Positions 13,560-64,000 of a DNA stretch of 64,000 nt are shown here, piece by piece. The stretch is from Rhizocola hellebori (lineage in GTDB: Bacteria; Actinomycetota; Actinomycetes; Mycobacteriales; Micromonosporaceae), in contig NZ_BONY01000019.1 in the NCBI RefSeq assembly GCF_016862955.1, positions 62,001 to 126,000 on the forward strand, written 5' to 3'. The first letter of the stretch is position 1. Each line of letters opens with the position of its first letter. The notes below the pieces were generated by a model that searched no databases, was not told where the DNA came from, and saw nothing but the letters and a program-made list of their open reading frames with translations. Both the position numbers and the translations under genes were made by a program.

Positions 13560-13684
13560 AGCAGAAATGGTCGGCGGCAAGGGTACCTGCGCGCGTCCGG
13601 CAGCGATCGGACTTCGCGCCTAACCCCTGGGTCTTACGTCAGGCGCCGCAATACGACCCTGGGGGCAGGTCGGCCGCGCCACGG

Positions 13685-13703
13685 CGACGCCGCTACGGCG
13701 TCG
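13685..13703 (-). terminator. Short GC hairpin just downstream of the GH15 gene
   Basis: CGACGCC (13685-13691) and GGCGTCG (13697-13703) can pair around a 5-base loop immediately after the GH15 stop. There is no T-run, so it is a weak terminator candidate only. Confidence 0.3.
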
Positions 13704-13706
13704 GGG

Positions 13707-15557: not shown

Positions 15558-15692
15558 GCACTTCAGGCTAGGTGGCACTCGGGCGCCCCGGTGCGGGAAC
15601 GCGGCAGGTTGCGCGGCCGCACCGAGGCGATATCAGGCAGCAATCGGTCATCAATGGCCGTTGGGCGTCAATCGCCTCGATGCGGTTACCGG

Positions 15693-49530: not shown

Positions 49531-52449
49531 TTAGTGTTCGAAGGCCTGGAATTCGGCGATGCGCACGTTGAGCGCTTGCGGGCTCGTGGTGGCGCAGTCG
49601 GTGTTGGCGCGGGTGTCGTTGTCCTGCTCACCGGCGTAGCCAGGGCCGCCGGTGCACTGGTTGGTCAGCACTTCGAGGCGCAGATGCGTGGCCTTCGTCC
49701 GTGGAATATCGAACGATTCGATGATTAGCTCCGGCGCCCTGGGGCGTGGGGCCACCGACGGGAACGCGTCGGGTTTGCTGGTGTAGACGGCGTGGAAGTC
49801 GGCCGGGTCGGCGCAGGTGACCGTGCCCTTGGCCTCACACGCCCACAACCGAAATTGGCGCAGGGCCGAGAAACGGCTCTGCGGGCCGCTGTCCGGGTCG
49901 GTGGTGATCTGCGGGCGCAGCATTGCGCTGACCTGGATGCGCCGCACGTGTTGGGCGGTGTCACCGGCGAGGTCGACGGTGATCTGCCTTCCGGCGACGG
50001 GGGCGCCCAGGGAGGCCCAGTTGGTGACCTCGTCGCCGTCGATGAGTTTGTCGAGGTTGATGCCGTCGCCGGTGGCGGTGGCGCCAGCGGCGGCGGAGGC
50101 GAAGTTGGCCCGCAGCTTGACCGGTAGGTCGCGCAGCTGGCCCGCCTTGACCTCGATCGGGCCGACCCGGGTGTGGCCGTAGCCGGGGGCGCGTACGACG
50201 AACTCGTAGACGCCGGGGACAAGGCTTACCGTGTCGGTGAGCGGGGTGGCCGCGTCGGTGTCGGCCACCGGGACGGCGCGGGCCTGGTACCGGCCGACAA
50301 ACAGCTCGGCATTGGCGATCGGGCCTCCGTCACCGGCCGGCCGCAAGGTGATCGTGGCCTCGGTGGCGTGCGGTGACGTGAAGCCTGGCACAGGATTGGC
50401 GTCCCCGGCGCCGTTGCTGGAAGCGGTCTCGCCCAAGCCGCGCTTGGCGAAGGCGTTCCACAGCAGGTCCTGGTTCGCGCCCCCGAAGCGGATCATGTCG
50501 GCGGCGAGCAGGGCGTCGCGGGCGTCCACCTGGCTGTTCTGGCTGTTGGCCATGAGCAGGAAGGAGTCGAACACCAGCTGCACCCAGCGGCGGTTGCCCG
50601 GGCACGAAGTGACCGGCGTTTCGCCTGCGGCACAGGACTTCTGCAGCCGCGGGTTGCCGTCGCCGTACCGCTTAATCATGGCTTGGCGGATGTCGAAGTT
50701 GGTCGCCGACCACACCTCGCCGGAGGAGTGGACCTGCAGCCCGACGAAGTCGTAGTCGACGCTGCTGTAGTTGAGGTCGCTGTCGCTCATGTTGTAGTTG
50801 CGGATCCCGGTGACCTGATCGCCGGTGACGTAGGGGCCGATGGCGAAGGCCTGTTTGCCGCGCGGCGCATAGCCGTTCTCGTTGAGGTATTCCATCGCCA
50901 GCAGGTCCGACCAGCTTTCGCTCATGCCCTGGGGCGAGCTGAGGCCCGCGTTCGGTCCGGCGATCATCCGGTTGGTGATGGCATGGGTGTACTCGTGCGC
51001 GATCACGGTCATGTCGAAGTCGCCATCGACGCACGGGGCGTAGAAGGAGCCCGCGATCGGCTGCCACAGGTACATGTTGGAGATGCCCGGCAGGCCGTCC
51101 GGCGGGGTGAACTGATTGGCGTTGTCCCGGGCGGCGAAGGTGGGCGGGCCGCCGCTGACGCCTCCGGCCTGGGCGTTGCCCTGCTCGAAGTCGCCGCCGA
51201 GACCGCCGCGGCCGAAGTTGTCCTGCTGCATGTTGAAGGTCGCCTCGGTGAAACCGAGGTGGTAGGACCAGTCGTGCATGCGGTTGTGCATGGCGAAAAG
51301 GTTGGCGCGGGCGGCGTCGATGTCGGCCGCCTGCGGCGAGGTGAACGTCGCCGGGTCGCAGCGCTGGGTCTGCCACTGGTTGGTCCACGGGTAGCTGTAG
51401 TCGCGGTCCGGGCGAGCGGTGGCGGTCTCCGTGCCGACGGTGCCACCGTTGTTGCTGAACCAGTTGTGCACCGCGATGGCGTTGTTGCCCTTGGTGGTCT
51501 GGGTCGTCGTGCCGGTGGCCGGGTCAATATCCCAAGCGGAGCCGATCGTCTCGTCGCAGCCGCGGGCCCGGGTCAGGCACCAGCGATCGCGGGTGTCGCG
51601 GGAGGAGTAGTCCAGCTTCGGGGTGTTCGGGAAGACTTCCCACTCGGGGTTGTCGCTGTCGGAGTCGACCAGGTTCTCCCGCACCAGCACGGTGCCGTCG
51701 CGTGCGTCGACATAGGTCGAGTAGGCGATGGGTTCCGCGCCGGTGAGGTCCGCGGCGAGCACCACCTCGTAGGCGGCGCGCGCGCCGCGGTCTGAGGTCG
51801 GGACGGCGACCAGCTTGGTGGAGGCGATCGTGGCGTCGGGCGCCTGCGCGTCGGTCTTGGCGAGGCGTTCGGCGTCGGCGGCGGTCAGCGTCGCCGGCTC
51901 GGGTGCTTTTCCGTCGGGGGCAAGCGATGAGGTGAGGTACCAGACGGAGCCGTCGCGGACGCCGATCGACATCATGCCGTCGACGGCGGCGGCCAGCTCG
52001 CCGAAACGCTGGCGCAGCAGGACGGCCGAGCCGAGCCCCATGGGCGCGACGGTCAGCACCTCCAGAGCGGCAGCCCCGCTTTCGGTCAGCCCAAGAACAT
52101 CGCGGTTGGCGGCCACATAGGCCAGGGCGGCCTGAGCCGGATCGGCGGGCAGGCCGGTGGCCAGCGGTGCGCCGGTCGACGCCAGGACTGCCGGTGTGCC
52201 AAGCGCATTCCAGCGCACTCGGGCGCTGAGCTGGCCCGCGCGCTGGCGCTGGCTCGCCGAGGGCTCGATCTTGCTGGGACGGTTGTCTTTGATCTTTGTG
52301 GTGACGTGGTCCCCGGGTGCCGTATCGGTCTGGACCCGGACCCCAGCCTGTGGCGGCGCCGCCTGGCCTCCGGATCCGAAGGCGAGCACGACGATGCCGG
52401 CGACCAGGAATGCAGTTGTCCGCGTGAACGCACGGGGTGAGGTGCGCAC
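49531..52449 (-). CDS. Secreted M36 (fungalysin) metalloprotease with C-terminal accessory domains
   Basis: The GTG at 52449 has AGGAGG five bases upstream and gives 972 residues with a signal peptide (FLVAGIVVLAFGSGGQA). An FTP-type propeptide spans about 35-280. The catalytic domain contains MTVIAHEYTHAITNRM (HExxH near 483) and GMSESWSDLLAMEYL with the third zinc ligand Glu. After about residue 720 come a carboxypeptidase-regulatory-like beta domain (LVPGVYEFVVRAPGYG) and an F5/8-type discoidin-like domain (DKLIDGDEVTNWASLG) to the end. Exported protein-degrading enzyme. Confidence 0.88.
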   Translation of the reverse strand: MRTSPRAFTRTTAFLVAGIVVLAFGSGGQAAPPQAGVRVQTDTAPGDHVTTKIKDNRPSKIEPSASQRQRAGQLSARVRWNALGTPAVLASTGAPLATGLPADPAQAALAYVAANRDVLGLTESGAAALEVLTVAPMGLGSAVLLRQRFGELAAAVDGMMSIGVRDGSVWYLTSSLAPDGKAPEPATLTAADAERLAKTDAQAPDATIASTKLVAVPTSDRGARAAYEVVLAADLTGAEPIAYSTYVDARDGTVLVRENLVDSDSDNPEWEVFPNTPKLDYSSRDTRDRWCLTRARGCDETIGSAWDIDPATGTTTQTTKGNNAIAVHNWFSNNGGTVGTETATARPDRDYSYPWTNQWQTQRCDPATFTSPQAADIDAARANLFAMHNRMHDWSYHLGFTEATFNMQQDNFGRGGLGGDFEQGNAQAGGVSGGPPTFAARDNANQFTPPDGLPGISNMYLWQPIAGSFYAPCVDGDFDMTVIAHEYTHAITNRMIAGPNAGLSSPQGMSESWSDLLAMEYLNENGYAPRGKQAFAIGPYVTGDQVTGIRNYNMSDSDLNYSSVDYDFVGLQVHSSGEVWSATNFDIRQAMIKRYGDGNPRLQKSCAAGETPVTSCPGNRRWVQLVFDSFLLMANSQNSQVDARDALLAADMIRFGGANQDLLWNAFAKRGLGETASSNGAGDANPVPGFTSPHATEATITLRPAGDGGPIANAELFVGRYQARAVPVADTDAATPLTDTVSLVPGVYEFVVRAPGYGHTRVGPIEVKAGQLRDLPVKLRANFASAAAGATATGDGINLDKLIDGDEVTNWASLGAPVAGRQITVDLAGDTAQHVRRIQVSAMLRPQITTDPDSGPQSRFSALRQFRLWACEAKGTVTCADPADFHAVYTSKPDAFPSVAPRPRAPELIIESFDIPRTKATHLRLEVLTNQCTGGPGYAGEQDNDTRANTDCATTSPQALNVRIAEFQAFEH

Positions 52450-52506
52450 GGGTGCCTCCTTGGTGTGGAATGGCGAGTGTGGTCGTAGGCCATTCAACCG
52501 AAGGAT

Positions 52507-54261
52507 TCAAATATTTGCCAGTGACGTTGGATCGAGGGCGGGTTCGGGGCGGTGCACGCCGCGCGGGCGGTAACCCAGCGCCCCGCTTTCGCCGAGCACG
52601 TCGGCCAGCAGCCAGATGATCGCCAGCCACATCTCTGTGCCCATCAGGCTGGGCTCGTGCTCGCGGCCGGTGGTGGGCATCGGGCTGAAGGCGAAGCCAG
52701 CCTCGGTGTGCCATCTGGTCAGCGCGTCGGCAAGCCTTTCCCGCGCCCACGATTGCACCTCGCCGCGGCGGTAGCCGGTCTGCTTTCCGCACAACCACAA
52801 CGGGTGGATCACGTCAAGAACGTCGCACGCGGTGCCCCGGCCGTCGGCGAACCAGCGGGGGTCGCGGGTGTGCGCCAGGACGCTGTCGATGACCGCCTCC
52901 GGCCGCGGAACCGGAACTCCGAATTGGGCGAAAGTGCCACGGGTCAGCCGGTAGTAGCCGTTGACCGGCTGCCGGCGGCCCTCCTGCGGGGTGGGGCCGC
53001 CCCACAGGCCCGACCATTTGTCCTGCCTTGTCAACAGCCAGCCCAGCAGTGTTTCCAGCGGGCCGTCCACGGCGAACAGGCGGCGGTTCCAGTACAGGCC
53101 GGTGGCGTACATGTCCACCCAGGCCCCGGCGCTCCACGCGTGGCTGTGCCACGGGAGATCGCCGAGGATTTTCTGCAGCTGACCGGCGTCGATCTGCTGG
53201 ATCGCGGCGATCGGATGGGGCAGGGCCGCGCCGAGCACATCGAGCGCGTAGCCGACGGCCAGGAGATGGTAGGCCGATCCACTGTGGACAGTGGCGCCGG
53301 TTTCGCCAAGCTCGGGACTGAGCCCGGTGGTGCGATCCTGCAGACCGGCGAGCCGCTCGATCAGCTCGTGCGCCGGGATCTGTGGCGGTGCCGTGCCCAG
53401 CAACAGGTCGGCCACCTCCACCGCGTCGCAGGTGGGCCTGACCGTCGCCGCCAGGCCGGGCAGGTTGCGGAACCAGCCGTCACCGCTCCAATAGCGCTGC
53501 AACAGAGATGGCGCCTGATCGCGAGCCTGCCGCGCAAAGCCTTCCAGCCGCCCGTCCAGGTCGCCGCCGGACGCGCCACCGGTCAAGCCGCCGGAGACGC
53601 TGCCCCCCAAGCCGCTGGGCGCGCTGCCGCCCAAGCCGCTGGGCGCGCTGCCACCCAAGCCGCTGGGCGCGCCGCCGCCCAAGCCGTCGGTCGAGCCGCT
53701 GGACGGGCGGGGCTTTCGGCGGTCGCGTAGGAGGCGGGCTGGGTTGCCGCCCATTACCGACCACGGCTGCACATCCTTGGTCACCACCGCGCCCGCGCCG
53801 ATGATGCTATGCGCGCCGACGGTGACGCCGTCGAGGATTATCGCGTTCGAGCCGATCCACACGTCGTCGCCGACGACAATGCCTTTGCTGACAACGGGTT
53901 GGCGGTGGATCGGCAGCGCCGGGTCGGCTGAGTGGTTGAAGCCCAGCAGCGACGCGTGCGCGCCGATGCGGACCCCGTCGCCGATCGTGACATTTCCCCG
54001 CACCACTGTGTACGGATTCAGCGTGGTGTGATCGCCGAGCCGCACCTGTCCGGTGACATACGCGTGCCCGGCGATGTAGGAATCACTGCCGATGCTCAGG
54101 TGGAAGTCGAAGATGGCGGCCAGCGGGGAGAGGAAGGTGCGCTCGCCCGCTTCGCGCAACCCGTGGCCGCGCAACTTTTCCTGCCAAGCGGCCTGCTGCG
54201 CGCGGTCGTCGTCGGTGGCCCTTTCCCAATAGAGCCAAGGACAGTAGTCGAACTCGGACAC
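52507..54261 (-). CDS. Hexapeptide acetyltransferase fused to an alpha/alpha-toroid-like domain
   Basis: The GTG at 54261 lies two bases after the regulator stop and gives 584 residues. Residues 50-185 are a left-handed beta-helix of the hexapeptide family (YIAGHAYVTGQVRLGDHTTL, IGDGVRIGAHASLLGFNHS, IIGAGAVVTKDVQPWSVMGG), with the active-site His in GFNHS, like maltose/galactoside O-acetyltransferases. A repetitive linker GLGGSAPS x4 (about 194-226) leads to a 350-residue helical domain (GSAYHLLAVGYALDVLG, GAWVDMYATGLYWNRRL) resembling toroid folds of uronyl-hydrolase or lyase enzymes. It probably acetylates, and perhaps binds or cleaves, the sugar handled by the cluster. Confidence 0.7.
   Translation of the reverse strand: MSEFDYCPWLYWERATDDDRAQQAAWQEKLRGHGLREAGERTFLSPLAAIFDFHLSIGSDSYIAGHAYVTGQVRLGDHTTLNPYTVVRGNVTIGDGVRIGAHASLLGFNHSADPALPIHRQPVVSKGIVVGDDVWIGSNAIILDGVTVGAHSIIGAGAVVTKDVQPWSVMGGNPARLLRDRRKPRPSSGSTDGLGGGAPSGLGGSAPSGLGGSAPSGLGGSVSGGLTGGASGGDLDGRLEGFARQARDQAPSLLQRYWSGDGWFRNLPGLAATVRPTCDAVEVADLLLGTAPPQIPAHELIERLAGLQDRTTGLSPELGETGATVHSGSAYHLLAVGYALDVLGAALPHPIAAIQQIDAGQLQKILGDLPWHSHAWSAGAWVDMYATGLYWNRRLFAVDGPLETLLGWLLTRQDKWSGLWGGPTPQEGRRQPVNGYYRLTRGTFAQFGVPVPRPEAVIDSVLAHTRDPRWFADGRGTACDVLDVIHPLWLCGKQTGYRRGEVQSWARERLADALTRWHTEAGFAFSPMPTTGREHEPSLMGTEMWLAIIWLLADVLGESGALGYRPRGVHRPEPALDPTSLANI
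53585..53680. repeat. Four 24-bp tandem repeats in the linker of the fusion protein
   Basis: Units AAGCCGCTGGGCGCGCTG-type of 24 bases at 53585, 53609, 53633 and 53657, the last three nearly identical. They encode GLGG-S/G-APS peptides on the minus strand, a flexible linker between domains. Copy number may vary by slippage. Confidence 0.85.
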
Positions 54262-54263
54262 CG

Positions 54264-55424
54264 CTATCGACGCCGGTCGTCGCTTTGGCGGGGGAGGGTG
54301 GCCAGCCTCGGCGGTGCGGTCGACTCGCGTACCCGCAACGACGGGCTGATGACCACGCGATGGGCGGGCCGGTTCGGCTCGAGCAGGCGGTCGGCGAGCA
54401 TCCGCACGGCGGCCCGCCCGATCGAGCGCCGCGGTGGCCGCACCGCCGTCAGCGGCGGGCTGAACAGGCCGGCGATCTCGTCGTCATAGGCCACAATGGA
54501 CAGATCACCCGGTACCGAGAGATGGCGTTCTTCACAATGTTGCACCAGGGCGACCGCTTCGGCGTCGGCGTGCACCAGCAAAGCCGTGGTGCCGGTGGCT
54601 AGGCATCGGTCGAGCACCTCGTCTAGAGCCTTGTCCCGCAACGGGGAACGGGCACCCGGGATGACGACATCCACCGTGTCTGAGCCGTCGATACCGTGAT
54701 CGGTCACCGCCTCGAGCCACCCCCGGCGCACGTGCGGCCGGGTCGGGCTGTGCTCGTCGAGCACCAGGCCCACCTTGCGGTGCCCCAACGAGAGCAGGTG
54801 CCGCACGGCCATCTCCGCGCCCAGTGCGTGATCGGTCACCACCGACTCGACGACGGCGTGGTGCGGCCCGGCCGTCGCGGTGCGTTCGAGCAACACCACC
54901 GGAATCCCGGTGGAAGCCAGCCATTCCAGGGTGCGCCGGGCGGTAGGGGCGTCCATTCGCGGCGCGATGGCCAGACCGTCGACGCCCATCTGCTCGACCA
55001 GGCGGGTCAGCTGCGGCCGGTCGTCCTCGGTCTCGTAGGAGGAGCCGCGCAGCACGACCCGCATCTCCAGCTCGCGGGCCAGCTCCTCGGCGCCGCGCGC
55101 CACGTCGGGCCAGTAGTAGTCCAGCGAGGGCACCAGCATGCCGATGGTGCAGCCGCGCAACGTTTCCAGCGGGCTGGGCGCAATGTCGTCAGCGGCCGCG
55201 GCATCTGCGGTCTCGCCGGGCCCGATCAGCGCCACTCCACCGTGGACCCGGCGCACCAGCCCTTCCGCGGCAAGCTGGGCGATGTCGCGGCGGATGGTCA
55301 CCGCGGCCGCGCCCAGGGCTTCGGTCAGATCCGAGACCCGAAGCGAGCCATCGCGCTGGAGCGCTTCCAGGAGCTGTTGCTGGCGGGCGACCTGAAGCGG
55401 CCCGCGCGCGTTCGGCGTGGTCAT
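54264..55424 (-). CDS. DeoR-HTH / LacI-type sugar-binding regulator
   Basis: The 386-residue protein has a DeoR-type winged helix at residues 10-65 (RQQQLLEALQRDGSLRVSDL followed by EALGAAAVTIRRDIAQLAAEG) fused to a LacI/periplasmic-binding-like domain (GCTIGMLVPSLDYYWPDVAR, VDGLAIAPRMDAP, GHRKVGLVLDEHS, LSIVAYDDEIAGLFSPPLTA). It probably represses the carbohydrate cluster and is released by a sugar. It is co-transcribed: its ATG overlaps the stop of the lyase gene, and the acetyltransferase gene follows two bases later. Confidence 0.88.
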   Translation of the reverse strand: MTTPNARGPLQVARQQQLLEALQRDGSLRVSDLTEALGAAAVTIRRDIAQLAAEGLVRRVHGGVALIGPGETADAAAADDIAPSPLETLRGCTIGMLVPSLDYYWPDVARGAEELARELEMRVVLRGSSYETEDDRPQLTRLVEQMGVDGLAIAPRMDAPTARRTLEWLASTGIPVVLLERTATAGPHHAVVESVVTDHALGAEMAVRHLLSLGHRKVGLVLDEHSPTRPHVRRGWLEAVTDHGIDGSDTVDVVIPGARSPLRDKALDEVLDRCLATGTTALLVHADAEAVALVQHCEERHLSVPGDLSIVAYDDEIAGLFSPPLTAVRPPRRSIGRAAVRMLADRLLEPNRPAHRVVISPSLRVRESTAPPRLATLPRQSDDRRR

Positions 55425-57331
55425 CGCCCCTCCCGAACCGTCAGGACGAACGTGCCGGCCGGGCCCAGCGCGGTCACGTCAAACTCAAGGCGTGTCAATC
55501 GGTTGCCCCACACATTGCTGAGCATAGGGTCATCCAGCTCGCGCACGGTTGCCGCACACGGCACGTGCGCGGGTTCCCAGGTCAAGGCGATGTCTCCGGC
55601 GTCGTCGAGGGCGGAGATCACGACCCGGCCGGAGTCGATGCTCACCTGCCCGGCCGCCACGAACTGCACCCGGGTCGGCCCATCGGCCGCCGCCAGCTGC
55701 CAGGAGTCGGTGACGACGATCCGTTCGGCTTCGCGGTCAAGACAGGCGACGCGCTTCCAGCCGTGAATGTCCTTACGTGGATACGCTTGCGCTATATCGA
55801 GGGTGATTGTCGTCTGTGTACCGATGACCGCCGCCACGCCCCGCGCCGCGTAACCCGGGCCCGGCTCCTGGGCGCTGCCAAGGATCTGCGGCACGTTGTG
55901 CCAGGCGCTCTGCATGGTCCAGATGTCATACCGGTCCGGCCCGAAGGTCTGCGCGGTATAGGTGGGGCGTCCGGCGTCGACGAGCACCGGCACCCCGCCC
56001 AGGGCCACGACGACGCTGCCCACATCGTTGTGGTTGTGGTGTTCGCCGTTGTGTCCGCCCTTGGCGGCCAGGGTCAGCCCGGCGGCGCTGCCCTCGTGTG
56101 ACCGGGCGAGCAGGACCTGGGTCGATTCGAACCAGACGTCGCGTGGCAGCGGTGGCGGGCAAGAGGCGGCCGCGGCCCAGTCTGGATCGGTCAGCGCGCG
56201 CAGCAGCCGGCCCAGACCAAGGTCCGGGTAGGACAGCGGCTCGCCCGGCAACCGGTGCATGGCGGCGTGCGCCCGCGCCGCCGGGTCACCCACCTGTCCC
56301 GCCGCCCGGTAGAGCGCGTCCCATGGCTGGCGCTCGGAGGGCCGCGCCGGGCCGTCGGCGTGGTTGAGATACCACGGCCCGCCCAGATAGGTCCGGTGTG
56401 GAAAGGCAACTGTTTCCCGTAGCGCCACCACATGCGCGGCGGTCAGCGCGCCCCCGGTCGCGTGGGCAAGCACGTCAAGGGCTTCCAGGGCGCGGCAAGC
56501 CCCGTTCCACCAATAGGAGTAGCCCTCGTCGATGGCGCCGTCGGCCGGCAGCGACGCCACGTAGCGATCGAGTCCCTCGATGACCAGATCCACCAGCTCC
56601 GCCCGGCGGCTCAGGTCGTCCTCCAGGCGCAGCGCCGCGACGAGAACGTTGCCGTGGATCCATGGGTTCCAGTTGTGCACATCGCCGTCAAGGCCGAGCC
56701 AATGCCAGTCCCGGCGGGCTGTGAACGGGGCGAGCACGCGCCGCCGCACCTCGTGGCGGATGCGGGCGCGCAACCCTGGCACCTGCTCGTCGAGCTGCTC
56801 GGCGAGCAGGTAGTCGAGCCAGGCCAGCTGCGAGGCCACCTCGCCCGCGCCGAGGTCGAGATAGGGGTCGGTGACGGTGGGGACCACCGCGCCGTGAACC
56901 CGTTTGGTGTCGTCGTGGGCGGGCCAGCACCAGCTGCTCTGCTCGCACAGCAAGGTGACGCCGTCGGTCACCTCGTCTATCCACATTGGATCCAAGGTGA
57001 CCGCGGCGAGAACGGTGGCGCGGCTGAGCCGTTGCTGGCGGGCGAAAACGGCTTGCTCGTAGGTATTGCGGTCGCCGTCGCGGAAGTAGCGGGCGTAGTC
57101 GTGTGCCAGCGGCTGCGGCCAGGGCGAGGCGAGGTCGGCTTCGGCTCGCTCACGCAAAGCTTGCAGCGTCTCGGCGTGCACGTGCTGGGCCGCCCACACC
57201 TGGCGCTGCGAAGCGGGGGAGACCGGCAACGCCTGCGCGGGGGCGAGGAGCAACTCCTGCAGGGTGCTCACGCCGATCGCCGGCCAGGCGGCGGCCAGCG
57301 GGCCGGCGAAGCGCTGCTCTTGGGTACCCAT
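55421..57331 (-). CDS. Heparinase II/III-like polysaccharide lyase
   Basis: The 636-residue cytoplasmic protein has an N-terminal alpha/alpha toroid (to about 370; GYSYWWNGACRALEALDVL) and a C-terminal beta-sandwich of the heparinase II/III family with GGHNGEHHNHNDVGSVVV near residue 425-445. The toroid also contains WLGLDGDVHNWNPW, typical of this family. Lyases of this type cut uronate-containing polysaccharides by beta-elimination and leave a 4,5-unsaturated uronic acid, the substrate of the GH88 enzyme encoded at 63353. First gene of the minus-strand arm. Confidence 0.8.
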   Translation of the reverse strand: MGTQEQRFAGPLAAAWPAIGVSTLQELLLAPAQALPVSPASQRQVWAAQHVHAETLQALRERAEADLASPWPQPLAHDYARYFRDGDRNTYEQAVFARQQRLSRATVLAAVTLDPMWIDEVTDGVTLLCEQSSWCWPAHDDTKRVHGAVVPTVTDPYLDLGAGEVASQLAWLDYLLAEQLDEQVPGLRARIRHEVRRRVLAPFTARRDWHWLGLDGDVHNWNPWIHGNVLVAALRLEDDLSRRAELVDLVIEGLDRYVASLPADGAIDEGYSYWWNGACRALEALDVLAHATGGALTAAHVVALRETVAFPHRTYLGGPWYLNHADGPARPSERQPWDALYRAAGQVGDPAARAHAAMHRLPGEPLSYPDLGLGRLLRALTDPDWAAAASCPPPLPRDVWFESTQVLLARSHEGSAAGLTLAAKGGHNGEHHNHNDVGSVVVALGGVPVLVDAGRPTYTAQTFGPDRYDIWTMQSAWHNVPQILGSAQEPGPGYAARGVAAVIGTQTTITLDIAQAYPRKDIHGWKRVACLDREAERIVVTDSWQLAAADGPTRVQFVAAGQVSIDSGRVVISALDDAGDIALTWEPAHVPCAATVRELDDPMLSNVWGNRLTRLEFDVTALGPAGTFVLTVREGR

Positions 57332-57349
57332 GACTCCCTCGCGGTATTC

Positions 57350-57486
57350 GATCGTGAACGTTTGTGAACGTATCAGATCGTTTAGAGTCCGAATAGTCCC
57401 AGCAGTGGGTTGTTTCGAGCGCGCGTCAGGATCGGATGTGATCGTATCGGTTTCGCAACAGTCTTGACATGAGCGCTTTTGATCGT
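57350..57486. promoter_or_regulatory. Repeated GATCGT operator words in divergent control region
   Basis: GATCGT occurs at 57350, 57376, 57440 and 57481; GTGAACGT occurs at 57354 and 57364 as a direct repeat with a 10-base period. These lie between the two arms of the carbohydrate cluster, whose DeoR/LacI-type regulator is encoded in the minus arm, and are the best operator candidates. Confidence 0.55.
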
Positions 57487-57492
57487 TTTAAC
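57464..57492 (+). promoter_or_regulatory. Near-consensus sigma-70 promoter for the plus arm
   Basis: TTGACA at 57464-57469, a 17-base spacer, and TTTAAC at 57487-57492 (4 of 6 match to TATAAT), 39 bases before the DUF2264 start. A GATCGT word at 57481-57486 sits in the spacer directly next to the -10 box, where a bound repressor would block polymerase. Confidence 0.65.
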
Positions 57493-57530
57493 TTTCGGGA
57501 CCACCCCACCCCGGATGAAGAAGGCCCCTC

Positions 57531-59504
57531 ATGACTACCCGGCAGCACTGGGTCGATCTCGCGGACCGCATGCTGGCCGCGGCCGCGCCCTTCGCGTCGC
57601 CGGGGCACGCTCGGATCGCGTTCCCCGGCCCGCAAGGTGGCTATGGGCATGACGTGGACGGGCTCGAGGGATTCGCCCGCACCTTCCTGCTGGCCGGTTT
57701 CCGCATCGCGGGCGAACGAGGCGCAGGCCTCGACGAGCTTGCCGACCGGTACATGGCGGGCATCGCCGCCGGCACCGACCCGGCATCGCCCGAGCGCTGG
57801 GTGCGCCTCGACGAACATCCCCAGGCGAAGGTGGAGGCCGCCTCCATCGCCCTGATTCTGGACCTGACCCGTCCCTGGATCTGGGACAGGCTCAAGCCCG
57901 AGGTGCAGGAGCGGGTGGTCGAGTACCTGTCCCCGGCCGTCGGCGATCCGACCTACCCGCGGATCAACTGGGTGTGGTTCCGCCTCGTCGTGCAGACCTT
58001 CCTGCGCTCGGTGGGCGGCCCCTGGTCGGCCGGGGAGATGGCCGAGGATCTGGCCACCCATGACACCTTCCAGCGCGCCGACGGCTGGATGTCGGACGGA
58101 CCGGAACGCTCCTACGACCATTACGTCGGCTGGGCGCTTCACCTCTATCCAGCGCTGTGGGCACGGATGGCGGGCGCGGCCGACTTCGCCGCCCCGCGCC
58201 GCGAGCGCGATGTCGCGATGCTCGACCGCTTCCTGCTCGATGCCGTGGCGCTGGTGGGCGCCGACGGCTCCCCGCTGATCCAGGGCCGCAGCCTCATCTA
58301 CCGGTTCGCCGCCGCGGCGCCGTTCTGGGTGGGCGCCCTTGCCGAGGTGCCATCGCTGAGCCCGGGTCTGCTGCGGCGGGCCGCCACCGGCGTGCTGAGC
58401 CACTTCACCGCACACAGCGTGCCCGACGAGCGCGGGCTGCTCACCCTCGGCTGGCACGGGGCGTGGCCACGGCTGGCCCAGTCCTACTCCGGGCCGGGTT
58501 CGCCTTACTGGGCAAGCAAAGGACTGCTCGGCCTGGCGCTGCCGGCCGACCATCCGGTGTGGACCTCCGCCGAGCTGCCGTTGCCGGTCGAGGAGGGCGA
58601 CACCCTGCGCACGGTGGGCGCACCGGGCTGGCTGATCAGCGCCACCCGCGCCGACGGCATCGTCCGGGTGCTCAATCACGGCACCGACCACGCCGTCGAA
58701 GGCTCCACCGGGGGCGACTCGCCCCTTTATGCACGGCTTGGCTACTCGACCGCGACCAGCCCGATCCTGGACGAAAGCGGCTGGGTGACGCCGCTGGACC
58801 AATCGGTGACCCTGGTCGACGACGCGGGCCGGGCGACCCATCGGGCGGGCATGAGCACTGTGCCGCCGCGCCTGCAAGACGGTCTGGGCATCGTCGGCTC
58901 GACCACGCAGGCGCATTGGGTCGACCCGCATCCGGGTCAGCCCGACCACGGCAGCGGCCGCAAGGGCGACGTCCAAGCGGCCGGATGCCTCACCGTCTTC
59001 TCCCTCGCCCGTGGGGCATGGGAGCTGCGACTGTCGCGAGTGGACACACTCGCTGCGGGCGTCGAAGCCAAAACGCTGCGCCTGCGAGTGGGCGGCTGGC
59101 CGGTCGCGGGCCGCGGTGAGGTGCGGATCGCGACCGGCAGCGTCACCGCGACCGGCGACGGCCTCACCTCGCGAGCCCACTGCGCCACGGGAGAAGGCGT
59201 CGCCGGAATCACCCGGCGCGCGGACGGCGGGCCGCTCGGCGGACGCGTATCGGTTCCCTGGCTTGAGTATCCGGTGCGCCTTGGCGCCTGGATCGCTTGC
59301 CTGATCGAGTTATCCGGCGGCGATCAGCCTCCGGACCGGCAGGGCTGCCGAGTCGTGCTCACGCAACGCGAGCACGACCTGGACGTCCGCATCGACTGGC
59401 CGGACGGCGTCCAGACGCTGACCTGCCTTGAAAACACGAATAACCCAGGGCACGCCATCGGCGCGGCCCACCAACATACGGGCCCGGCCTCGGGCCCCGA
59501 TTGA
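57531..59504 (+). CDS. DUF2264 family protein
   Basis: The 657-residue cytoplasmic protein opens the plus-strand arm. An N-terminal helical toroid-like region contains GHDVDGLEGFARTFLLAGFR and DGWMSDGPERSYDHYVGWAL, segments typical of DUF2264. The C-terminal half is beta-rich (RVLNHGTDHAVEGSTGGDSP). DUF2264 members occur in clusters for uronate or rhamnose-containing polysaccharides and are suspected to be lyases or hydrolases, but the reaction is not settled. It is 15 bases before the binding-protein gene. Confidence 0.8.
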   Translation: MTTRQHWVDLADRMLAAAAPFASPGHARIAFPGPQGGYGHDVDGLEGFARTFLLAGFRIAGERGAGLDELADRYMAGIAAGTDPASPERWVRLDEHPQAKVEAASIALILDLTRPWIWDRLKPEVQERVVEYLSPAVGDPTYPRINWVWFRLVVQTFLRSVGGPWSAGEMAEDLATHDTFQRADGWMSDGPERSYDHYVGWALHLYPALWARMAGAADFAAPRRERDVAMLDRFLLDAVALVGADGSPLIQGRSLIYRFAAAAPFWVGALAEVPSLSPGLLRRAATGVLSHFTAHSVPDERGLLTLGWHGAWPRLAQSYSGPGSPYWASKGLLGLALPADHPVWTSAELPLPVEEGDTLRTVGAPGWLISATRADGIVRVLNHGTDHAVEGSTGGDSPLYARLGYSTATSPILDESGWVTPLDQSVTLVDDAGRATHRAGMSTVPPRLQDGLGIVGSTTQAHWVDPHPGQPDHGSGRKGDVQAAGCLTVFSLARGAWELRLSRVDTLAAGVEAKTLRLRVGGWPVAGRGEVRIATGSVTATGDGLTSRAHCATGEGVAGITRRADGGPLGGRVSVPWLEYPVRLGAWIACLIELSGGDQPPDRQGCRVVLTQREHDLDVRIDWPDGVQTLTCLENTNNPGHAIGAAHQHTGPASGPD

Positions 59505-59519
59505 AGAGAAGGAGCAAGG

Positions 59520-60839
59520 ATGAAGCGCACGTTCGCGGCCGCCCTGGGCGTCGCAACGGCAATCACGCTGGTCCTCGCCGGTTGCAGCAGCGAGGAGGAT
59601 CTCCCGGAGGCGAAGCCCTTCCCGACCGGGCCGGTGACCATCTCGCTGGCCGGCTGGAGCCTGTCGACGACTCCGGAGTTCAAGACCCTGGCCGACGGCT
59701 TCAAAGCGCTGCACCCGAATGTGACGGTGGAGCTCAAGGAGTACGACGCGGCCAACTATGACACGCAGATGACCGCCGACCTTGCCGCCGGAACAGCCCC
59801 CGATGTCTACGTGCTGAAGAACCTGAAGAACTTCACCACCTACCAGGACGGCGGTCAGCTGGCCGACGTCTCCGACGTGGCGAGCAAGCTCGGCAACACC
59901 GTCGGTGGCCTGTCGGGCTATCAGGTCAACGGAAAGTCCTATGCGGTTCCCTACCGCCAGGACTCGTGGGTGCTGTACTACGACAAGGACCTGTTCGACC
60001 AGGCCAAGGTCGCCTACCCAGACGGCAGCTGGACCTGGGACGACTATGCGAAGAAGGCCAAGGAGCTGACCACCGGGCTCAAGGCGGCCGGATCCACCGC
60101 CGTCGGCACCTACCAGCACTCGTGGCAGTCCACGGTGCAGGGCTTCGCGCTTGCCCAGACCGCGGGCGCCAGCCTGGAGAGTGGCAACTTCTCCTACGTC
60201 AAGCCCTACTACAACCGGGTGACCGACCTTCAGGCCTCGGGCGCGCAGCCGAACTTCGGCACCGTGACCACGAACAAGCTCACCTACCAGGCGCAGTTCG
60301 GCAAGCAGTCGGCGGCGATGCTGCCGATGGGCACGTGGTACATCGCCACGCTGATCAAGCAGCGCAGCACCGGCGACGCCAACAAGTTCAACTGGGGCAT
60401 CGCCCCGGCGCCGCAGTTCGACTCCAGCACCACCGGCACCTCCAAGACTCCGGTGACCTTCGGCGACCCGACCGGCCTGGGCATCAACCCGGCCATCAGC
60501 GACGGCGGCAAGGTGACCGTGGCCAAGGAGTTCCTCGCCTACGCCGCCGGTGAAGCGGCCGCCAAGGCGCTCGCGGGCATCGGCATCACCCCCGCCAACA
60601 CCTCCGACGCGGTGGCGGCGACGTTCTTCGCGCTGGACGGGGTACCGGGAGACGCGCTGTCGAAGTTCGCGTGGAGCAAGCACGACACCAAGCCGGAGAA
60701 CCCGGTGTCCAAGCACACGGCCGGACTGCAGAACGTCTTGAACACCCTGCACTCGGCGGTGCTCTCCAACAGCAAGGGCATCGACGACGCGATCACCGCG
60801 GCGCAGACCCAGGCCAAGAACGAGGTCCTCAACCAGTGA
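59520..60839 (+). CDS. Sugar ABC transporter substrate-binding lipoprotein (family 1)
   Basis: The 439-residue protein starts after AAGGAG and has a clean lipoprotein signal (TAITLVLAGCSSEE; lipidated Cys near residue 22). The body is SBP family 1: TTPEFKTLADGFKALHPNVT, MTADLAAGTAPDVYVLKN, GKSYAVPYRQDSWVLYYDKD, AAMLPMGTWYIATLIKQ. It binds an oligosaccharide outside the cell and delivers it to the two permeases encoded next. Presumably the ligand is an unsaturated oligosaccharide or its precursor. Confidence 0.9.
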   Translation: MKRTFAAALGVATAITLVLAGCSSEEDLPEAKPFPTGPVTISLAGWSLSTTPEFKTLADGFKALHPNVTVELKEYDAANYDTQMTADLAAGTAPDVYVLKNLKNFTTYQDGGQLADVSDVASKLGNTVGGLSGYQVNGKSYAVPYRQDSWVLYYDKDLFDQAKVAYPDGSWTWDDYAKKAKELTTGLKAAGSTAVGTYQHSWQSTVQGFALAQTAGASLESGNFSYVKPYYNRVTDLQASGAQPNFGTVTTNKLTYQAQFGKQSAAMLPMGTWYIATLIKQRSTGDANKFNWGIAPAPQFDSSTTGTSKTPVTFGDPTGLGINPAISDGGKVTVAKEFLAYAAGEAAAKALAGIGITPANTSDAVAATFFALDGVPGDALSKFAWSKHDTKPENPVSKHTAGLQNVLNTLHSAVLSNSKGIDDAITAAQTQAKNEVLNQ

Positions 60840-60915
60840 CCCGTACGGTGGTTCCGGCCTCCGGCTTCGGCCGCGCCGGAACCACCGGCGGGCTCGCCCA
60901 GCTCGGGAGGCCGTT

Positions 60916-61797
60916 ATGGCAACGACACCGCTGAAGCGGCGCAACGCGTTGGTGGGATGGAGTTTCATCCTGCCCAACTTCGCCGGCTTCGCCGCTCTCA
61001 CCCTGGCACCGGTCATCGTGCTCTTCTACGTCGCCTTCACCAGCTGGAACGTCTTCGGCAAGGCGCGCTGGACCGGGACAGCCAACTTCATCCGGATGTG
61101 GCACGACGCCAGCTTCTGGACCGCGCTGACCAATACGCTCTACTACACGTCTTTGCACATCCCGCTCACGCTCAGCGCCTCGCTGGGATTGGCGCTGCTG
61201 CTCAACCGTTCGCTGCGCGGAGTGGCCTTCTTCCGCACCGCCGCCTTCTTCCCCTACATCACGTCGATGGTCGCGCTGACCTACGTGTGGAACATGCTCT
61301 TCAGCCCCGATTACGGGCCCATCAACAGCTTCCTGCGCTTCATCGGGATCGCCAACCCGCCGGGGTGGACGACGTCGGCCGACTGGTCGATGCCCGCGGT
61401 CATCTTCGTCGGTACCTGGCGCGAGATGGGCTACTACATGTTGCTCTTCCTCGCCGGCCTGCAGACCATCCCCGCGCAGCTCTACGAAGCCGCCCGGGTG
61501 GACGGCGCGAACCCTTGGCAGCGCTTCCTTTTCGTCACACTCCCCGGGCTGCGCCACACGACGTTCTTCGTTGTCGTGATCATGACTATCGGCAGTTTCA
61601 AGGTCTTCGATCTGATCCTGCTGATGACCGAAGGCGGTCCGGGCCAGTCGACCCTGGTGCTGTCGCAGTACATCTATCAGAAGGGCTTCGTGGAGAACCA
61701 GTTCGGCTACGCGTCGGCCGTCTCCATCGTGCTGTTCGCGATCTGCTGCCTGGTCACCATCTTCCAGTACTTCGTCAACAGGCGGTGGAACGACTGA
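60916..61797 (+). CDS. Sugar ABC transporter permease (MalF/UgpA type)
   Basis: The 293-residue protein has six membrane segments and the EAA loop QLYEAARVDGANPWQRFLFV near residue 190. The ATG has GGGAGG six bases upstream. It overlaps the second permease gene by one base (TGATG). Transports the sugar bound by the preceding lipoprotein; no ATPase gene is present in the window, so a shared MsiK-type ATPase is likely (inference). Confidence 0.9.
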   Translation: MATTPLKRRNALVGWSFILPNFAGFAALTLAPVIVLFYVAFTSWNVFGKARWTGTANFIRMWHDASFWTALTNTLYYTSLHIPLTLSASLGLALLLNRSLRGVAFFRTAAFFPYITSMVALTYVWNMLFSPDYGPINSFLRFIGIANPPGWTTSADWSMPAVIFVGTWREMGYYMLLFLAGLQTIPAQLYEAARVDGANPWQRFLFVTLPGLRHTTFFVVVIMTIGSFKVFDLILLMTEGGPGQSTLVLSQYIYQKGFVENQFGYASAVSIVLFAICCLVTIFQYFVNRRWND

Positions 61798-62621
61798 TGA
61801 AACGCAATACTGCCGGCCGCGTGCTGCTGTATGCGGGGCTGATCATCGCCGCCGCCGCCCTGCTGCTGCCGTTCTACTGGATGGTCTCCTCGTCGCTGAA
61901 GGCGAACAACGACGTCTTCACCATCCCGCTCAAGTGGGTGCCCGACACCTTCATGTGGCGCAACTACGGCGACATCTTCGCCAAGTCGGGGATGACGACG
62001 TGGCTGACGAACACGCTCACCCTCTCGGTCACGGTCACCCTGCTGCAGGTGCTCACCGGAAGCTTTGCCGCGTATGGCTTTTCCAAGGTGCGCTTCCGCG
62101 GGCGCAATGTGCTGTTCCTGGCCTACATCGCGACGATCGCGGTGCCGTGGCAGTCCTACATGATCCCGCAGTTCATCCTGATGTCGAAGCTGCACCTGTC
62201 GAACACCCTGTTCTCGATCATCGCGCTGCAGGCCTTCGGCGCGTTCGGGGTGTTCCTCATGAAACAGTTCTACGAAACGATTCCCGAGGAGCTCAGCGAA
62301 GCGGCCCGCCTCGACGGCCTCAGCGAGTACGGCATCTACTGGCGCATCATCCTGCCGCTGTCCAAGCCCGCGATCGCCAGCCTTTCCCTGCTCACGTTCG
62401 TCAGCACCTGGAACGACTACCTAGGCCCGCTGATCTACCTGCGCAAGCCCGACCTGTGGACAGTGCAGCTCGGCCTGCGCACGTTCATCTCCCAGTACAA
62501 CGCCGAATACGCGCTGATCATGGCGGGATCGGTGCTGTCGGTGCTGCCGATCGCCATCGTGTTCCTGTTCGGCCAGCGCTACTTCGTCGAGGGCATCACG
62601 TCCACCGGTCTGAAGGGGTGA
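61797..62621 (+). CDS. Sugar ABC transporter permease (MalG/UgpE type)
   Basis: The ATG at 61797 overlaps the previous stop; a longer frame from 60957 is only a shadow of the first permease. The 274 residues have six membrane segments, starting LLYAGLIIAAAALLLPFYWM, and the EAA loop ELSEAARLDGLSEYGIYWRI. It pairs with the upstream permease as a heterodimer. Confidence 0.9.
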   Translation: MKRNTAGRVLLYAGLIIAAAALLLPFYWMVSSSLKANNDVFTIPLKWVPDTFMWRNYGDIFAKSGMTTWLTNTLTLSVTVTLLQVLTGSFAAYGFSKVRFRGRNVLFLAYIATIAVPWQSYMIPQFILMSKLHLSNTLFSIIALQAFGAFGVFLMKQFYETIPEELSEAARLDGLSEYGIYWRIILPLSKPAIASLSLLTFVSTWNDYLGPLIYLRKPDLWTVQLGLRTFISQYNAEYALIMAGSVLSVLPIAIVFLFGQRYFVEGITSTGLKG

Positions 62622-62627
62622 CCTGAG

Positions 62628-63305
62628 ATGCGCTTTCGCCACAACACTTTCGCCACCATCTTCGACACCGTCTACGTGGGACTGGCGGCGAACCTTCTGT
62701 TCATCGCCGGATTCCTGCCGTTGCTGGCGGGGTTGGCGCTGACCGACCCGGCGCGGTCCTGGCCGCTGCTCGCCGCGATCGCGCCGCTGTGCGCGCCGGG
62801 GCTGTGCGGCGTGTTCGCCGTGCTGAGCGAGTTTTCCGGCGGCCGGTCCACCGCGGTGCTGTCCACCTTCGGCCGGGTTTGGCGTGCGTCGTGGCGGCGC
62901 GCGACAGCCCTGGCCGCGTTGAGCTCCGCCGCCGTGGTGGTGCTGGCGGTGGACATTCGCTTCGCGTGGGGGCGCACCGCCGGGGCGCTGGCCATTCCGG
63001 TGCTCGCCACCCTGATCGCGCTGACGGTGGCGACCACACTGCTCGGCCTGGTCGCGCTTTCCGAGGCCCCGGCGGCACGGCTGCGCGACGTGGCGCGGGC
63101 GGGCGCCTATCTCGCGGTGCGGCGCTGGTACCTCACGGCTGTCTCGCTAGCCGTGCTAGCCCTGCTCGCCCAGCTCATCGTCACCCGGCCCGCGATCGCC
63201 CTCGGGCTCGCCGCGGCCCCGCTGCTGTACGTGGTGTGGGCCAACAGCCGGTTCACCCTGCGCACGGCCCTGCCCGACTCACGCCCGCTGGCGCACCACG
63301 CTTAG
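62628..63305 (+). CDS. DUF624 (YesL-like) membrane protein
   Basis: The 225-residue protein has about five hydrophobic segments and the family-like N-terminus FATIFDTVYVGLAANLLFIAG. YesL/DUF624 proteins accompany sugar ABC importers and uronyl hydrolases in several bacteria; their function is not established. It lies six bases after the permease gene and 47 before the GH88 gene. Confidence 0.75.
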   Translation: MRFRHNTFATIFDTVYVGLAANLLFIAGFLPLLAGLALTDPARSWPLLAAIAPLCAPGLCGVFAVLSEFSGGRSTAVLSTFGRVWRASWRRATALAALSSAAVVVLAVDIRFAWGRTAGALAIPVLATLIALTVATTLLGLVALSEAPAARLRDVARAGAYLAVRRWYLTAVSLAVLALLAQLIVTRPAIALGLAAAPLLYVVWANSRFTLRTALPDSRPLAHHA

Positions 63306-63352
63306 CCGCACCCCCGTGGCACCACCAAAGCTCATAAGGGAGAAGCACATCC

Positions 63353-64000
63353 ATGACAGCGATCGACGGCCTTGGAGCCCGCGCTTGGCAGATCCGCGAT
63401 GTTGGCGGGCCGCCGGGTGAACTCCTGGGCCGCGTCGGCCCAAGCTCCGAAGCCGAGGCGAAGGCGGCTGCCCGCGCGTTGCGCACGGTCGACGCGAACA
63501 TCTCGGCGTTCGGCCGCCTCTACCCGGACGACACGACCGCGGGCAACATCTATCCGCTGCGCCCGGCTGCGGGTGATCTCCCCGAGGGCTCCAACGTGGG
63601 ATGGACCACCGGTTTCTGGCCGGGCGTGCTCTGGCTGGCCCACGATCTGACCGGCGAGGAACGATATCTGGCCGCGGCATCGTCGCATGTGGACAGCTTC
63701 GCTCGGCGGGTCGAGAACCGGATCGGCCTCGACACCCATGACCTCGGTTTCCTTTACACTCTGTCCTGCGTGGCCGCCTGGCAGCGCACAGGCGACGAGA
63801 CCGCGAAACAGGCCGCCCTCGCCGCCGCCGATCACCTGATGACCCGGGTGCTGGAGCCGGCCGGGATCATCCAGGCCTGGGGCGACCTTCAGGACCCCAG
63901 CCAGCGCGGGCGCACCATCATCGATAGCCTGATGAACACGCCCCTGCTGTTCTGGGCGAGCAGGATCAGCGGTGATCCCCGCTACGCGCAGGTGGCCCGG
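63353..64000 (+). CDS. GH88 unsaturated glucuronyl hydrolase (3' part missing)
   Basis: The ATG at 63353 (AAGGGAGAAG upstream) opens a frame that runs off the right edge; 216 residues are visible. Family marks are GWTTGFWPGVLWLAHDLTG (84-101), THDLGFLY with Asp130 and IIDSLMNTPLLFWA with Asp191; these correspond to the two catalytic Asp residues of GH88 enzymes. The enzyme hydrates and releases the unsaturated uronic acid from lyase products, linking it to the heparinase-like lyase. No signal peptide, so it is cytoplasmic. Confidence 0.88.
   Translation, partial: MTAIDGLGARAWQIRDVGGPPGELLGRVGPSSEAEAKAAARALRTVDANISAFGRLYPDDTTAGNIYPLRPAAGDLPEGSNVGWTTGFWPGVLWLAHDLTGEERYLAAASSHVDSFARRVENRIGLDTHDLGFLYTLSCVAAWQRTGDETAKQAALAAADHLMTRVLEPAGIIQAWGDLQDPSQRGRTIIDSLMNTPLLFWASRISGDPRYAQVAR

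Follow-up and report, generated by a model that had tools for sequence, protein, structure and literature searches.

What does a soil actinomycete take up and degrade with a cluster that joins a uronate lyase, a DUF2264 protein and an unsaturated glucuronyl hydrolase to a single importer? The question is raised by positions 52507 to 64000 of a 64,000-nucleotide stretch of the Rhizocola hellebori genome (NZ_BONY01000019.1, 62001-126000; the contig measures 150,513 bp and the genome 10.77 Mb), which is referred to here as the window. An original prediction, made from the letters of the window, described a uronate polysaccharide cluster with an unknown substrate, arranged as two divergent arms. 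Every gene it named is present where it was placed, the uronate assignment is borne out by the enzyme families, and the arms do diverge from one region of 199 bp (57332-57530). The minus arm runs through the lyase, the regulator and an acetyltransferase. The plus arm runs through the DUF2264 protein, a solute-binding protein, two permeases, a 225-residue protein and GH88, and beyond 64000, where the prediction had advised looking, it extends into genes for a KduI/IolB-family isomerase, KduD and GH42. Judged by its gene families, the cluster appears to be readable almost completely, as import, lyase, dehydratase, GH88, Kdu steps and GH42. We read it as an intracellular import and scavenging operon for galactan oligosaccharides ending in glucuronic acid (GlcA), most likely derived from type II arabinogalactan, and put the probability of this reading at about 0.5.

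The lyase matches the PL33 structures 8r73, 8r75, 8r6z and 8r70 over residues 22-628 or 26-616 (phmmer, E 6e-82 to 1e-80; structures from PMC11848413). Residues were mapped to the characterised BtPL33 by hand. Its catalytic N238, Y291 and H444 correspond to N220, Y273 and H432 of the window lyase, its +1 binding residues R103 and H154 to R88 and H139, its platform L174, W239 and W242 to L160, W221 and W224, and its Y470 and F475 to Y458 and F463. All ten mapped residues are invariant across 15 aligned lyases. W224 of BtPL33, the platform of the +2 subsite, is replaced by H210. On this alignment the enzyme is PL33-like, with the catalytic apparatus kept. At the position of BtPL33 W242 the tryptophan agrees with subfamily PL33_1, PL33_2 having valine, a comparison that covers this single position. 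No signal peptide is evident by eye (no predictor was run), and the lyase is therefore probably cytoplasmic. The substrates of characterised PL33 members are hyaluronan, heparosan, chondroitin or gellan: hyaluronan and heparosan belong to PL33_1, the gellan enzyme falls in PL33_2, one PL33_2 member is partly active on glucuronan, and an actinobacterial PL33 from Curtobacterium showed no activity on any uronate of the panel (PMC11848413).

The DUF2264 protein had been proposed as a possibly uncharacterised step, a suggestion that does not hold at the family level, since the family is GH154, which includes glucuronate dehydratases (PMC12269599). The DUF2264 profile is covered from position 1 to 352 of 353, and the PDB entries matched by phmmer, 9o4u and 9nwf (E about 1e-24), are labelled 'beta-D-glucuronic acid dehydratase' and 'glucuronate dehydratase'. 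Two GH154 members were described in 2025 as eliminating water from terminal beta-glucuronate, and the product of one of them, BcGDH, is a substrate of GH88 (PMC12269599). Conservation was assessed by hand at ten BcGDH residues, each of which, when changed, left no detectable activity. N177, W178, F181, Y229, R285, Y289 and Y354 align with N146, W147, F150, Y198, R253, Y257 and Y319; E74 and R78 correspond to E46 and R50, placed by spacing only, outside the aligned stretch; and N176 is replaced by I145, so that nine of the ten essential residues are kept. Y198, R253 and Y257 occupy the positions of the proposed catalytic Y229, R285 and Y289. The predicted model (mean predicted local distance difference test score, pLDDT, 77.5) matches 8oi4, 9o4u and 9nwf with Z-scores of 32.2, 31.5 and 31.1, superposing on the latter two over 356 residues with a root-mean-square deviation (rmsd) of 3.4 and 22% identity; the next fold reaches only Z 17.4. 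A C-terminal beta-sandwich domain, which BcGDH does not have, completes the protein. The founding GH154 member BT3677, reported as active on beta-1,6-linked glucuronate and first as an exo-beta-1,6-glucuronidase, is also described with a second domain (PMC12269599), and the two-domain build is common to it and the window protein. Sequence and model together indicate that the DUF2264 protein is likely a GH154-type glucuronate dehydratase. Glucuronate dehydratase and GH154 are also mentioned in a paper on haloarchaea and glycosaminoglycans (PMC13260240). The genome yielded a single match each for DUF2264 and for the window lyase.

Relatives of the cluster were collected by scanning public genomes with an alignment of the lyase. 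At least 593 stretches matched, 577 of them encoding a relative, and the best 80 named loci (denoted L with a number) were analysed; they come from Actinoplanes, Micromonospora, Phytohabitans, Dactylosporangium, Microbacterium, Rathayibacter, Cellulomonas, Nonomuraea and other genera. Genes were counted anywhere in a locus above set scores, 14 of the 80 loci being shorter than 18 kb. Gene calls were made with a codon-usage script, which may misplace starts and short genes, and neighbouring proteins were mostly sorted by eye, with 22 (10, 9 and 3) annotated by Pfam. Relatives of the regulator occur in 78 loci, of the DUF2264 protein in 77, of the solute-binding protein in 75, of both permeases in 73 and of the DUF624-like protein in 73, followed by GH88 (52), KduD (48), the acetyltransferase (22) and GH42 (2). 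Because the core genes recur around the 80 lyase relatives, their grouping is not a matter of chance.

GH88 matches the unsaturated glucuronyl hydrolase 2zzr over its full length (phmmer, E 2.5e-100), and its best PDB matches are unsaturated hydrolases of glucuronyl and chondroitin-disaccharide type. It keeps two aspartates aligned, by hand count, with D115 and D175 of 3anj, which we take to be functional residues of GH88. The dehydratase and GH88 chemistry is, with high confidence, as read here. The isomerase passes the NCBIfam cut-off for IolB (217.9 against 205 bits), with no KduI model listed for it, and is the only KduI/IolB-family (PF04962) protein found in its genome. Among the 80 loci 14 have an IolB-type and 28 a KduI-type protein (the three of the 28 that were checked all exceed the KduI cut-off NF002091). 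The two types never occur together and each is found only alongside GH88, which speaks for their replacing each other. In Micromonosporaceae-type clusters it is the IolB-family protein (5-deoxy-glucuronate isomerase in NCBIfam) that stands in the place of KduI (in L002, the locus of the window lyase, at 14613-15437). With isomerase and KduD present, the predicted route from unsaturated uronate to 2-keto-3-deoxygluconate is complete, provided that the isomerase does the work of KduI; Eda is encoded on another contig.

The relatives display two further variations of this part of the cluster. A D-2-hydroxyacid dehydrogenase replaces the GH88-KduI-KduD part in 24 of the 80 loci (such as L122, L145, L161 and L172) and occurs together with GH88 or KduD in none of the 80; a further example is in L082 at 13815-14828. 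A gene of the fumarylacetoacetate-hydrolase family is present in 30 loci (for example L139, 1641-2555; one was checked with Pfam), flanked by GH88 and KduD in 29 and accompanied by KduI in 27. Its product may replace 2-keto-3-deoxygluconate kinase and aldolase by splitting a diketo acid directly.

Evidence on the substrate comes largely from genes that neighbour the lyase in relatives. Within 10 kb of the lyase, five of the 80 loci encode a GH30 protein, the one tested having as its best PDB match an entry named 'secreted endo-beta-1,6-galactanase' (E 2.8e-32), and six encode a GH43 of the exo-beta-1,3-galactanase type. The one GH43 tested matches 3vsf (E 1.5e-142), 7bys, 'galactan 1,3-beta-galactosidase' (E 7.8e-63), and 5flw, 'exo-beta-1,3-galactanase'; 3vsf is listed in the PDB as 'Ricin B lectin' and is presumably an exo-1,3-galactanase. 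We take these neighbours, which Pfam places in GH30 and GH43, to belong to GH30_5 and GH43_24. Such galactanases were found in 11 of the 80 loci against none of 40 control windows (20 kb each, from 10 genomes; p 0.015), and in 9 when self-matches are left out (p 0.028), all p-values serving as guides. The pair is a mark of type II arabinogalactan. A wider set of neighbours adds GH59 (7), GH5-ricin (7), GalT/GalK (6), GH35 (3) and GH42 (2), along with GH2, GH51 and further GH43 proteins in one or a few loci each, and is represented in 37 loci. Without self-matches the count is 33 of 80 against 2 of 40 controls (p 1.4e-5). It falls to 28 without GalT/GalK loci (p 2.4e-4), to 24 without GH5 and GH59 (p 0.002) and to 19 without all three (p 0.011). 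In one published table GH30_5, GH43_24 and GH154 stand together under arabinogalactan (PMC11475409), and the side chains of type II arabinogalactan bear GlcA, 4-O-methyl-GlcA and rhamnosyl-GlcA (PMC8377490, PMC8406133). The genome of R. hellebori encodes, on another contig, a protein 73% identical to the exo-galactanase of L148. The substrate, left as unknown by the original prediction, is thereby narrowed by GH42, KduD and the isomerase together with the type II arabinogalactan neighbours of the relatives, and is still only a candidate: the gene content suggests an arabinogalactan-type substrate at roughly even odds.

A shared operator appears to link the two arms to each other and, in places, to the galactan enzymes. 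The regulator combines a DeoR-type helix-turn-helix with a LacI/periplasmic-binding-like sensor domain. In 62 intergenic regions between lyase and DUF2264 genes, pairs of GATC lie 10 bp apart 72 times and 20 bp apart 19 times, against 0 to 9 times for each other spacing from 4 to 30 bp; control windows have no excess of GATC pairs at 10 bp. The resulting consensus is TTATGATCGTTTATGATCGCTT-like. The best site scores at least 18 in 61 of the 62 regions, including that of the window, which also belonged to the training set; one region has no site. The best sites in the window lie at 57348-57387, 57422-57451 and 57463-57492, and towards the DUF2264 gene the control region has a TTGACA ahead of a GATC site. 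A weight matrix trained without the window on 44 regions outside Micromonosporaceae (sorted by genus) gives the window 28.2 and 17 held-out Micromonosporaceae regions 17.4 to 32.6; the highest score in 40 control windows of 20 kb each is 15.3. Among 53 galactan-type genes, five (two GH59, two GH43 and one GH5) have a site scoring at least 14 upstream, as do 8 of the 616 other genes outside the core (p 0.002); such a score is also reached somewhere in 4 of the 40 control windows. Three of the eight are of cluster type, being two hydroxyacid dehydrogenases and one KduI. In the genome of R. hellebori a search with a 20-base operator string matched only the window site. The proposal that one regulator serves both arms is well founded, the operator being conserved in their common intergenic region, and in some relatives the control exerted by this regulator probably extends to galactan enzymes. 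The regulator would bind these sites and act as a repressor.

One member of the wider neighbour set, the GH5-type protein, is found near the lyase in seven loci (L106 at 13280-14725, L171 at 14751-16181 and five more). It carries a ricin-B lectin domain in L106 and an operator upstream once, in L123.

The enzyme families, active-site residues, operon layout and conserved operator, as compared in sequence and structure, suggest the following route. Secreted enzymes encoded elsewhere would release short GlcA-ended chains from type II arabinogalactan, that is, from arabinogalactan proteins (AGPs) and gum-arabic-like glycans, and the ATP-binding cassette (ABC) importer would take them into the cell. 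There the PL33-like lyase would strip the O4 substituent of glucuronate by beta-elimination, leaving 4,5-unsaturated glucuronate; alpha-L-rhamnose, a usual substituent in AGPs, would be the leaving group. Bare terminal glucuronate would reach the unsaturated state through the DUF2264/GH154 dehydratase, by elimination of water across C4-C5. GH88 would hydrolyse unsaturated glucuronate of both origins, the KduI/IolB-family isomerase and KduD would convert it to 2-keto-3-deoxygluconate, and GH42 would take off the exposed beta-galactose. The DeoR/LacI-type regulator would repress both arms through its sites of 10-bp tandem repeats. We suggest more tentatively, as a possibility we would not favour at present, that the whole actinobacterial branch of PL33 consists of intracellular exo-lyases for plant arabinogalactan, which would act on the terminal glucuronate of beta-1,6-galactan and cut L-rhamnose from its O4 (or, with the dehydratase, remove a 4-O-methyl group as methanol).

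Several observations weigh against an arabinogalactan source. The reference genes for the neighbour comparisons were picked after the loci had been viewed, and the loci are mutually related, which is why the p-values are guides. No neighbour of the wide set is present in 43 of the 80 loci and neither specific galactanase in 69; the window's own cluster contains none of the arabinogalactan-specific galactanases, and its sole pointer to galactose is GH42, a gene shared by just two of the 80 relatives. At E 1e-20 the GH30 endo-galactanase has no match in the R. hellebori genome (22 of the 49 genomes searched have one), and the region of the exo-galactanase in that genome has no operator. Conservation of the lyase active site is silent on which O4 substituent is removed. 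Characterised PL33 enzymes act on glycosaminoglycans or gellan, and the consulted text of PMC11848413 reports none acting on arabinogalactan. The table of PMC11475409 files GH59 and PL33_2 under animal glycans, and GH59 is among the more frequent neighbours and among those that bear the operator.

These last points are shared with another explanation, under which the cluster would serve unsulfated glycosaminoglycan-type chains (fragments of heparosan, hyaluronan or chondroitin, including the capsules of other bacteria): PL33 would cut chains of GlcA and hexosamine, and the dehydratase and GH88 would clear the ends, as in the chondroitin locus of Bacteroides caccae. Known PL33 members do act on hyaluronan, heparosan and chondroitin sulfate (PMC11848413), the published trio of lyase, dehydratase and GH88 is a chondroitin pathway (PMC12269599), the GH88 matches include chondroitin-disaccharide hydrolases, and the lyase has tryptophan where PL33_1, the hyaluronan and heparosan subfamily, has it and PL33_2 has valine. 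The surroundings of the cluster argue otherwise. No sulfatase was found in 100 loci, no hexosaminidase stood out among the 22 neighbours annotated by Pfam (most others were viewed by eye, without a search aimed at hexosaminidases), and the neighbours encode galactan and galactose enzymes instead. The lyase has no evident signal peptide, and the Curtobacterium enzyme was inactive on its panel (PMC11848413). We consider this explanation unlikely. It is quite unlikely that the substrate is a bacterial exopolysaccharide containing 4-linked glucuronate, whether gellan-like or one with galactose. One PL33 cuts gellan (PMC11848413), and GH42 would suit a polymer containing galactose. The same tryptophan stands where PL33_2, the subfamily of the gellan enzyme, has valine. 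We know of no single such exopolysaccharide that would account for neighbours of the GH30, GH43 and GH59 families.

Two further proposals concern pectin and glucuronan. Terminal glucuronate is known on the galactan side chains of rhamnogalacturonan I, the pectic polysaccharide, and the GH42, GH35, GH51 and GH43 proteins, the last with arabinofuranosidase-type domains, would suit its arabinan and galactan side chains; a Nonomuraea locus (L163) has a GH28-like protein at its edge, seen by eye only. The beta-1,6-endo- and beta-1,3-exo-galactanases of the relatives are of AGP type rather than of the rhamnogalacturonan I type, and pectin side chains are very unlikely to be the target. Glucuronan, a polyglucuronate that the lyase, the dehydratase and GH88 could degrade fully by themselves, was an idea suggested by the window, whose part of the cluster holds no other glycosidase, and one PL33_2 member has some activity on glucuronan (PMC11848413). 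The presence of GH42 in the same operon and of galactan enzymes in some relatives, a few of them under the same operator, weakened this idea and makes it extremely improbable.

Use of plain heparin or heparan sulfate is rejected on account of the missing sulfatases and the PL33-like lyase, in agreement with the original prediction, which had argued against plain heparin and had named sulfatases or other substrate-specific genes just outside the window as the finding that would overturn its reading. No sulfatase is found nearby. A hidden Markov model built from 12 sulfatases detected no sulfatase among the 1692 open reading frames (ORFs) of 100 relatives' loci (the 80 named and 20 others, with several loci represented twice). 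The genome of R. hellebori encodes two sulfatases on other contigs (C30 and C106) and none on that of the window, and a sulfatase occurs somewhere in 32 of the 49 genomes searched. The lyase's seven PDB matches, whose family assignment is our own presumption, include no PL12 or PL21 chain.

The features of the cluster are collected in the table. Their packing is operon-like, with an overlap of 4 bp between lyase and regulator, a gap of 2 bp between regulator and acetyltransferase and an overlap of 4 bp between the permeases. The N-terminus of the solute-binding protein has a hydrophobic stretch ending in LAGC. GH42 is followed by a LuxR-type regulator on the opposite strand.

Table. Coordinates (window numbering) and supporting matches of the features of the uronate cluster
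Feature	Position	Strand	Basis
Acetyltransferase, two-domain	52507-54261	-	Pfam Hexapep, 72 bits
Regulator	54264-55424	-	HTH_DeoR, 61 bits; Peripla_BP_3, 125 bits
PL33-like lyase	55421-57331	-	Pfam Hepar_II_III_C, 27.6 bits (cut-off 24); phmmer matches to PL33 structures
Divergent control region with GATC-centred operator of 10-bp tandem repeats	57332-57530	.	Motif scores
DUF2264 protein, GH154-type	57531-59504	+	Pfam DUF2264, 367 bits (cut-off 25)
ABC importer, solute-binding lipoprotein	59520-60839	+	SBP_bac_1, 99 bits
ABC importer, permease 1	60916-61797	+	BPD_transp_1, 59 bits; nearest NCBIfam UgpA, under cut-off
ABC importer, permease 2	61794-62621	+	BPD_transp_1, 74 bits; nearest NCBIfam UgpE, under cut-off
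Small membrane-type protein, 225 aa, tentatively DUF624 (YesL-like)	62628-63305	+	DUF624, 17.0 bits, below cut-off 24.2
GH88 unsaturated glucuronyl hydrolase	63353-64597 (window ends at 64000)	+	Glyco_hydro_88, 70 bits (cut-off 26.6)
KduI/IolB-family isomerase	64612-65436, right of window	+	KduI profile, 245 bits
KduD	65439-66203, right of window	+	NCBIfam TIGR01832, 353.7 bits (cut-off 338.85)
GH42 beta-galactosidase	66200-68218, right of window	+	Family assignment

The acetyltransferase had been taken as an argument about the substrate, on which it says little: it is unseen in 58 of the 80 loci, some of them short, and occurs in other contexts as well. An earlier impression from a sample of 150 genomes, that it is missing from all relatives' clusters, was overturned by its presence in 22 of the 80 named loci. 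It follows this regulator in many loci of the Microbacterium type; elsewhere it stands beside another importer and a hydroxyacid dehydrogenase-like protein (L098) or beside the dehydrogenase-like protein alone (L100). Given these varied contexts, it accompanies such pathways in places and is dispensable for them. Across 24 sequences the protein shows good conservation, with a mean column identity of 54%; it passes no NCBIfam cut-off among 25 of 47 families. An N-terminal left-handed beta-helix (Hexapep) is joined by a repetitive linker of Gly, Ser, Pro and Leu, a run of near-identical SGLGGSAP repeats, to a C-terminal (alpha/alpha) toroid. The model has pLDDT mostly above 90 in the C-terminal part and lower in the N-terminal part. 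The toroid superposes on the beta subunit of a protein prenyltransferase (3dss_B; Z 20.3, rmsd 3.4, 274 residues, 14% identity), and the PL27 structure 5noa appears at Foldseek rank 24. In the model the prenyltransferase-like toroid is a common helical fold, from which no function follows. Our guess is a LacA-like side enzyme acting on unused galactosides.

The next gene downstream of the acetyltransferase, which shares its strand, encodes an M36 (fungalysin) peptidase (49531-52497). No relative of it was found above the set score in the 80 loci, and the peptidase therefore probably lies outside the cluster.

If the reading for the whole actinobacterial PL33 branch is true, a single system of lyase, dehydratase and GH88 would deal with capped and bare glucuronate ends alike, and in some relatives one operator would be common to this system and to secreted galactan enzymes. 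The inactivity of the Curtobacterium enzyme leaves the substrate of actinobacterial PL33 lyases to be explained, and the operon and its relatives offer glucuronate of the AGP type as a candidate. Here the dehydratase logic described in 2025 would be paired with a second lyase family, this time in a different phylum and perhaps on a substrate other than glycosaminoglycans. The cluster also illustrates that substrate calls based on families, PL33_2 being assigned to animal glycans and GH154 to arabinogalactan (PMC11475409), could divide one operon between two substrates.

No title describing this cluster was found in the open-licence literature of PMC; a paper on a Microbacterium glycosaminoglycan lyase (PMC12666371) was considered as a match and set aside, the lyase there being PL8. 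The parts of the cluster are known and their combination is new, a variant of the published logic of lyase, dehydratase and GH88. Its closest parallel is the chondroitin pathway of B. caccae PUL25 (BcPL35, BcGDH, BcGH88 and BcGH109), where a lyase and a GH154-type dehydratase likewise feed GH88 and where, according to the part of PMC12269599 drawn on, the locus has no chondroitin-specific sulfatase. The two differ in that PUL25 has PL35 and the hexosaminidase GH109, whereas the present cluster has a PL33-like lyase and GH42, and in that a polysaccharide utilisation locus of Bacteroidota stands against an ABC importer. The PL33 lyases (BT4410, also BtPL33-HA, and relatives) resemble the window enzyme in their full-length match and in the catalytic apparatus, but the known members cut glycosaminoglycans or gellan and BtPL33 has tryptophan in place of the histidine at the +2 platform. 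The arabinogalactan loci of B. thetaiotaomicron differ, the rhamnose cap being removed in Bacteroides by GH145 and PL27 (PMC8377490). The rhamnosyl-glucuronate lyases PL27 (BACCELL_00875) and PL42 (FoRham1) are alike in the proposed action, beta-elimination of the rhamnose cap from the GlcA of arabinogalactan (PMC8377490), but belong to other families, neither of which appears among the sequence matches of the window lyase.

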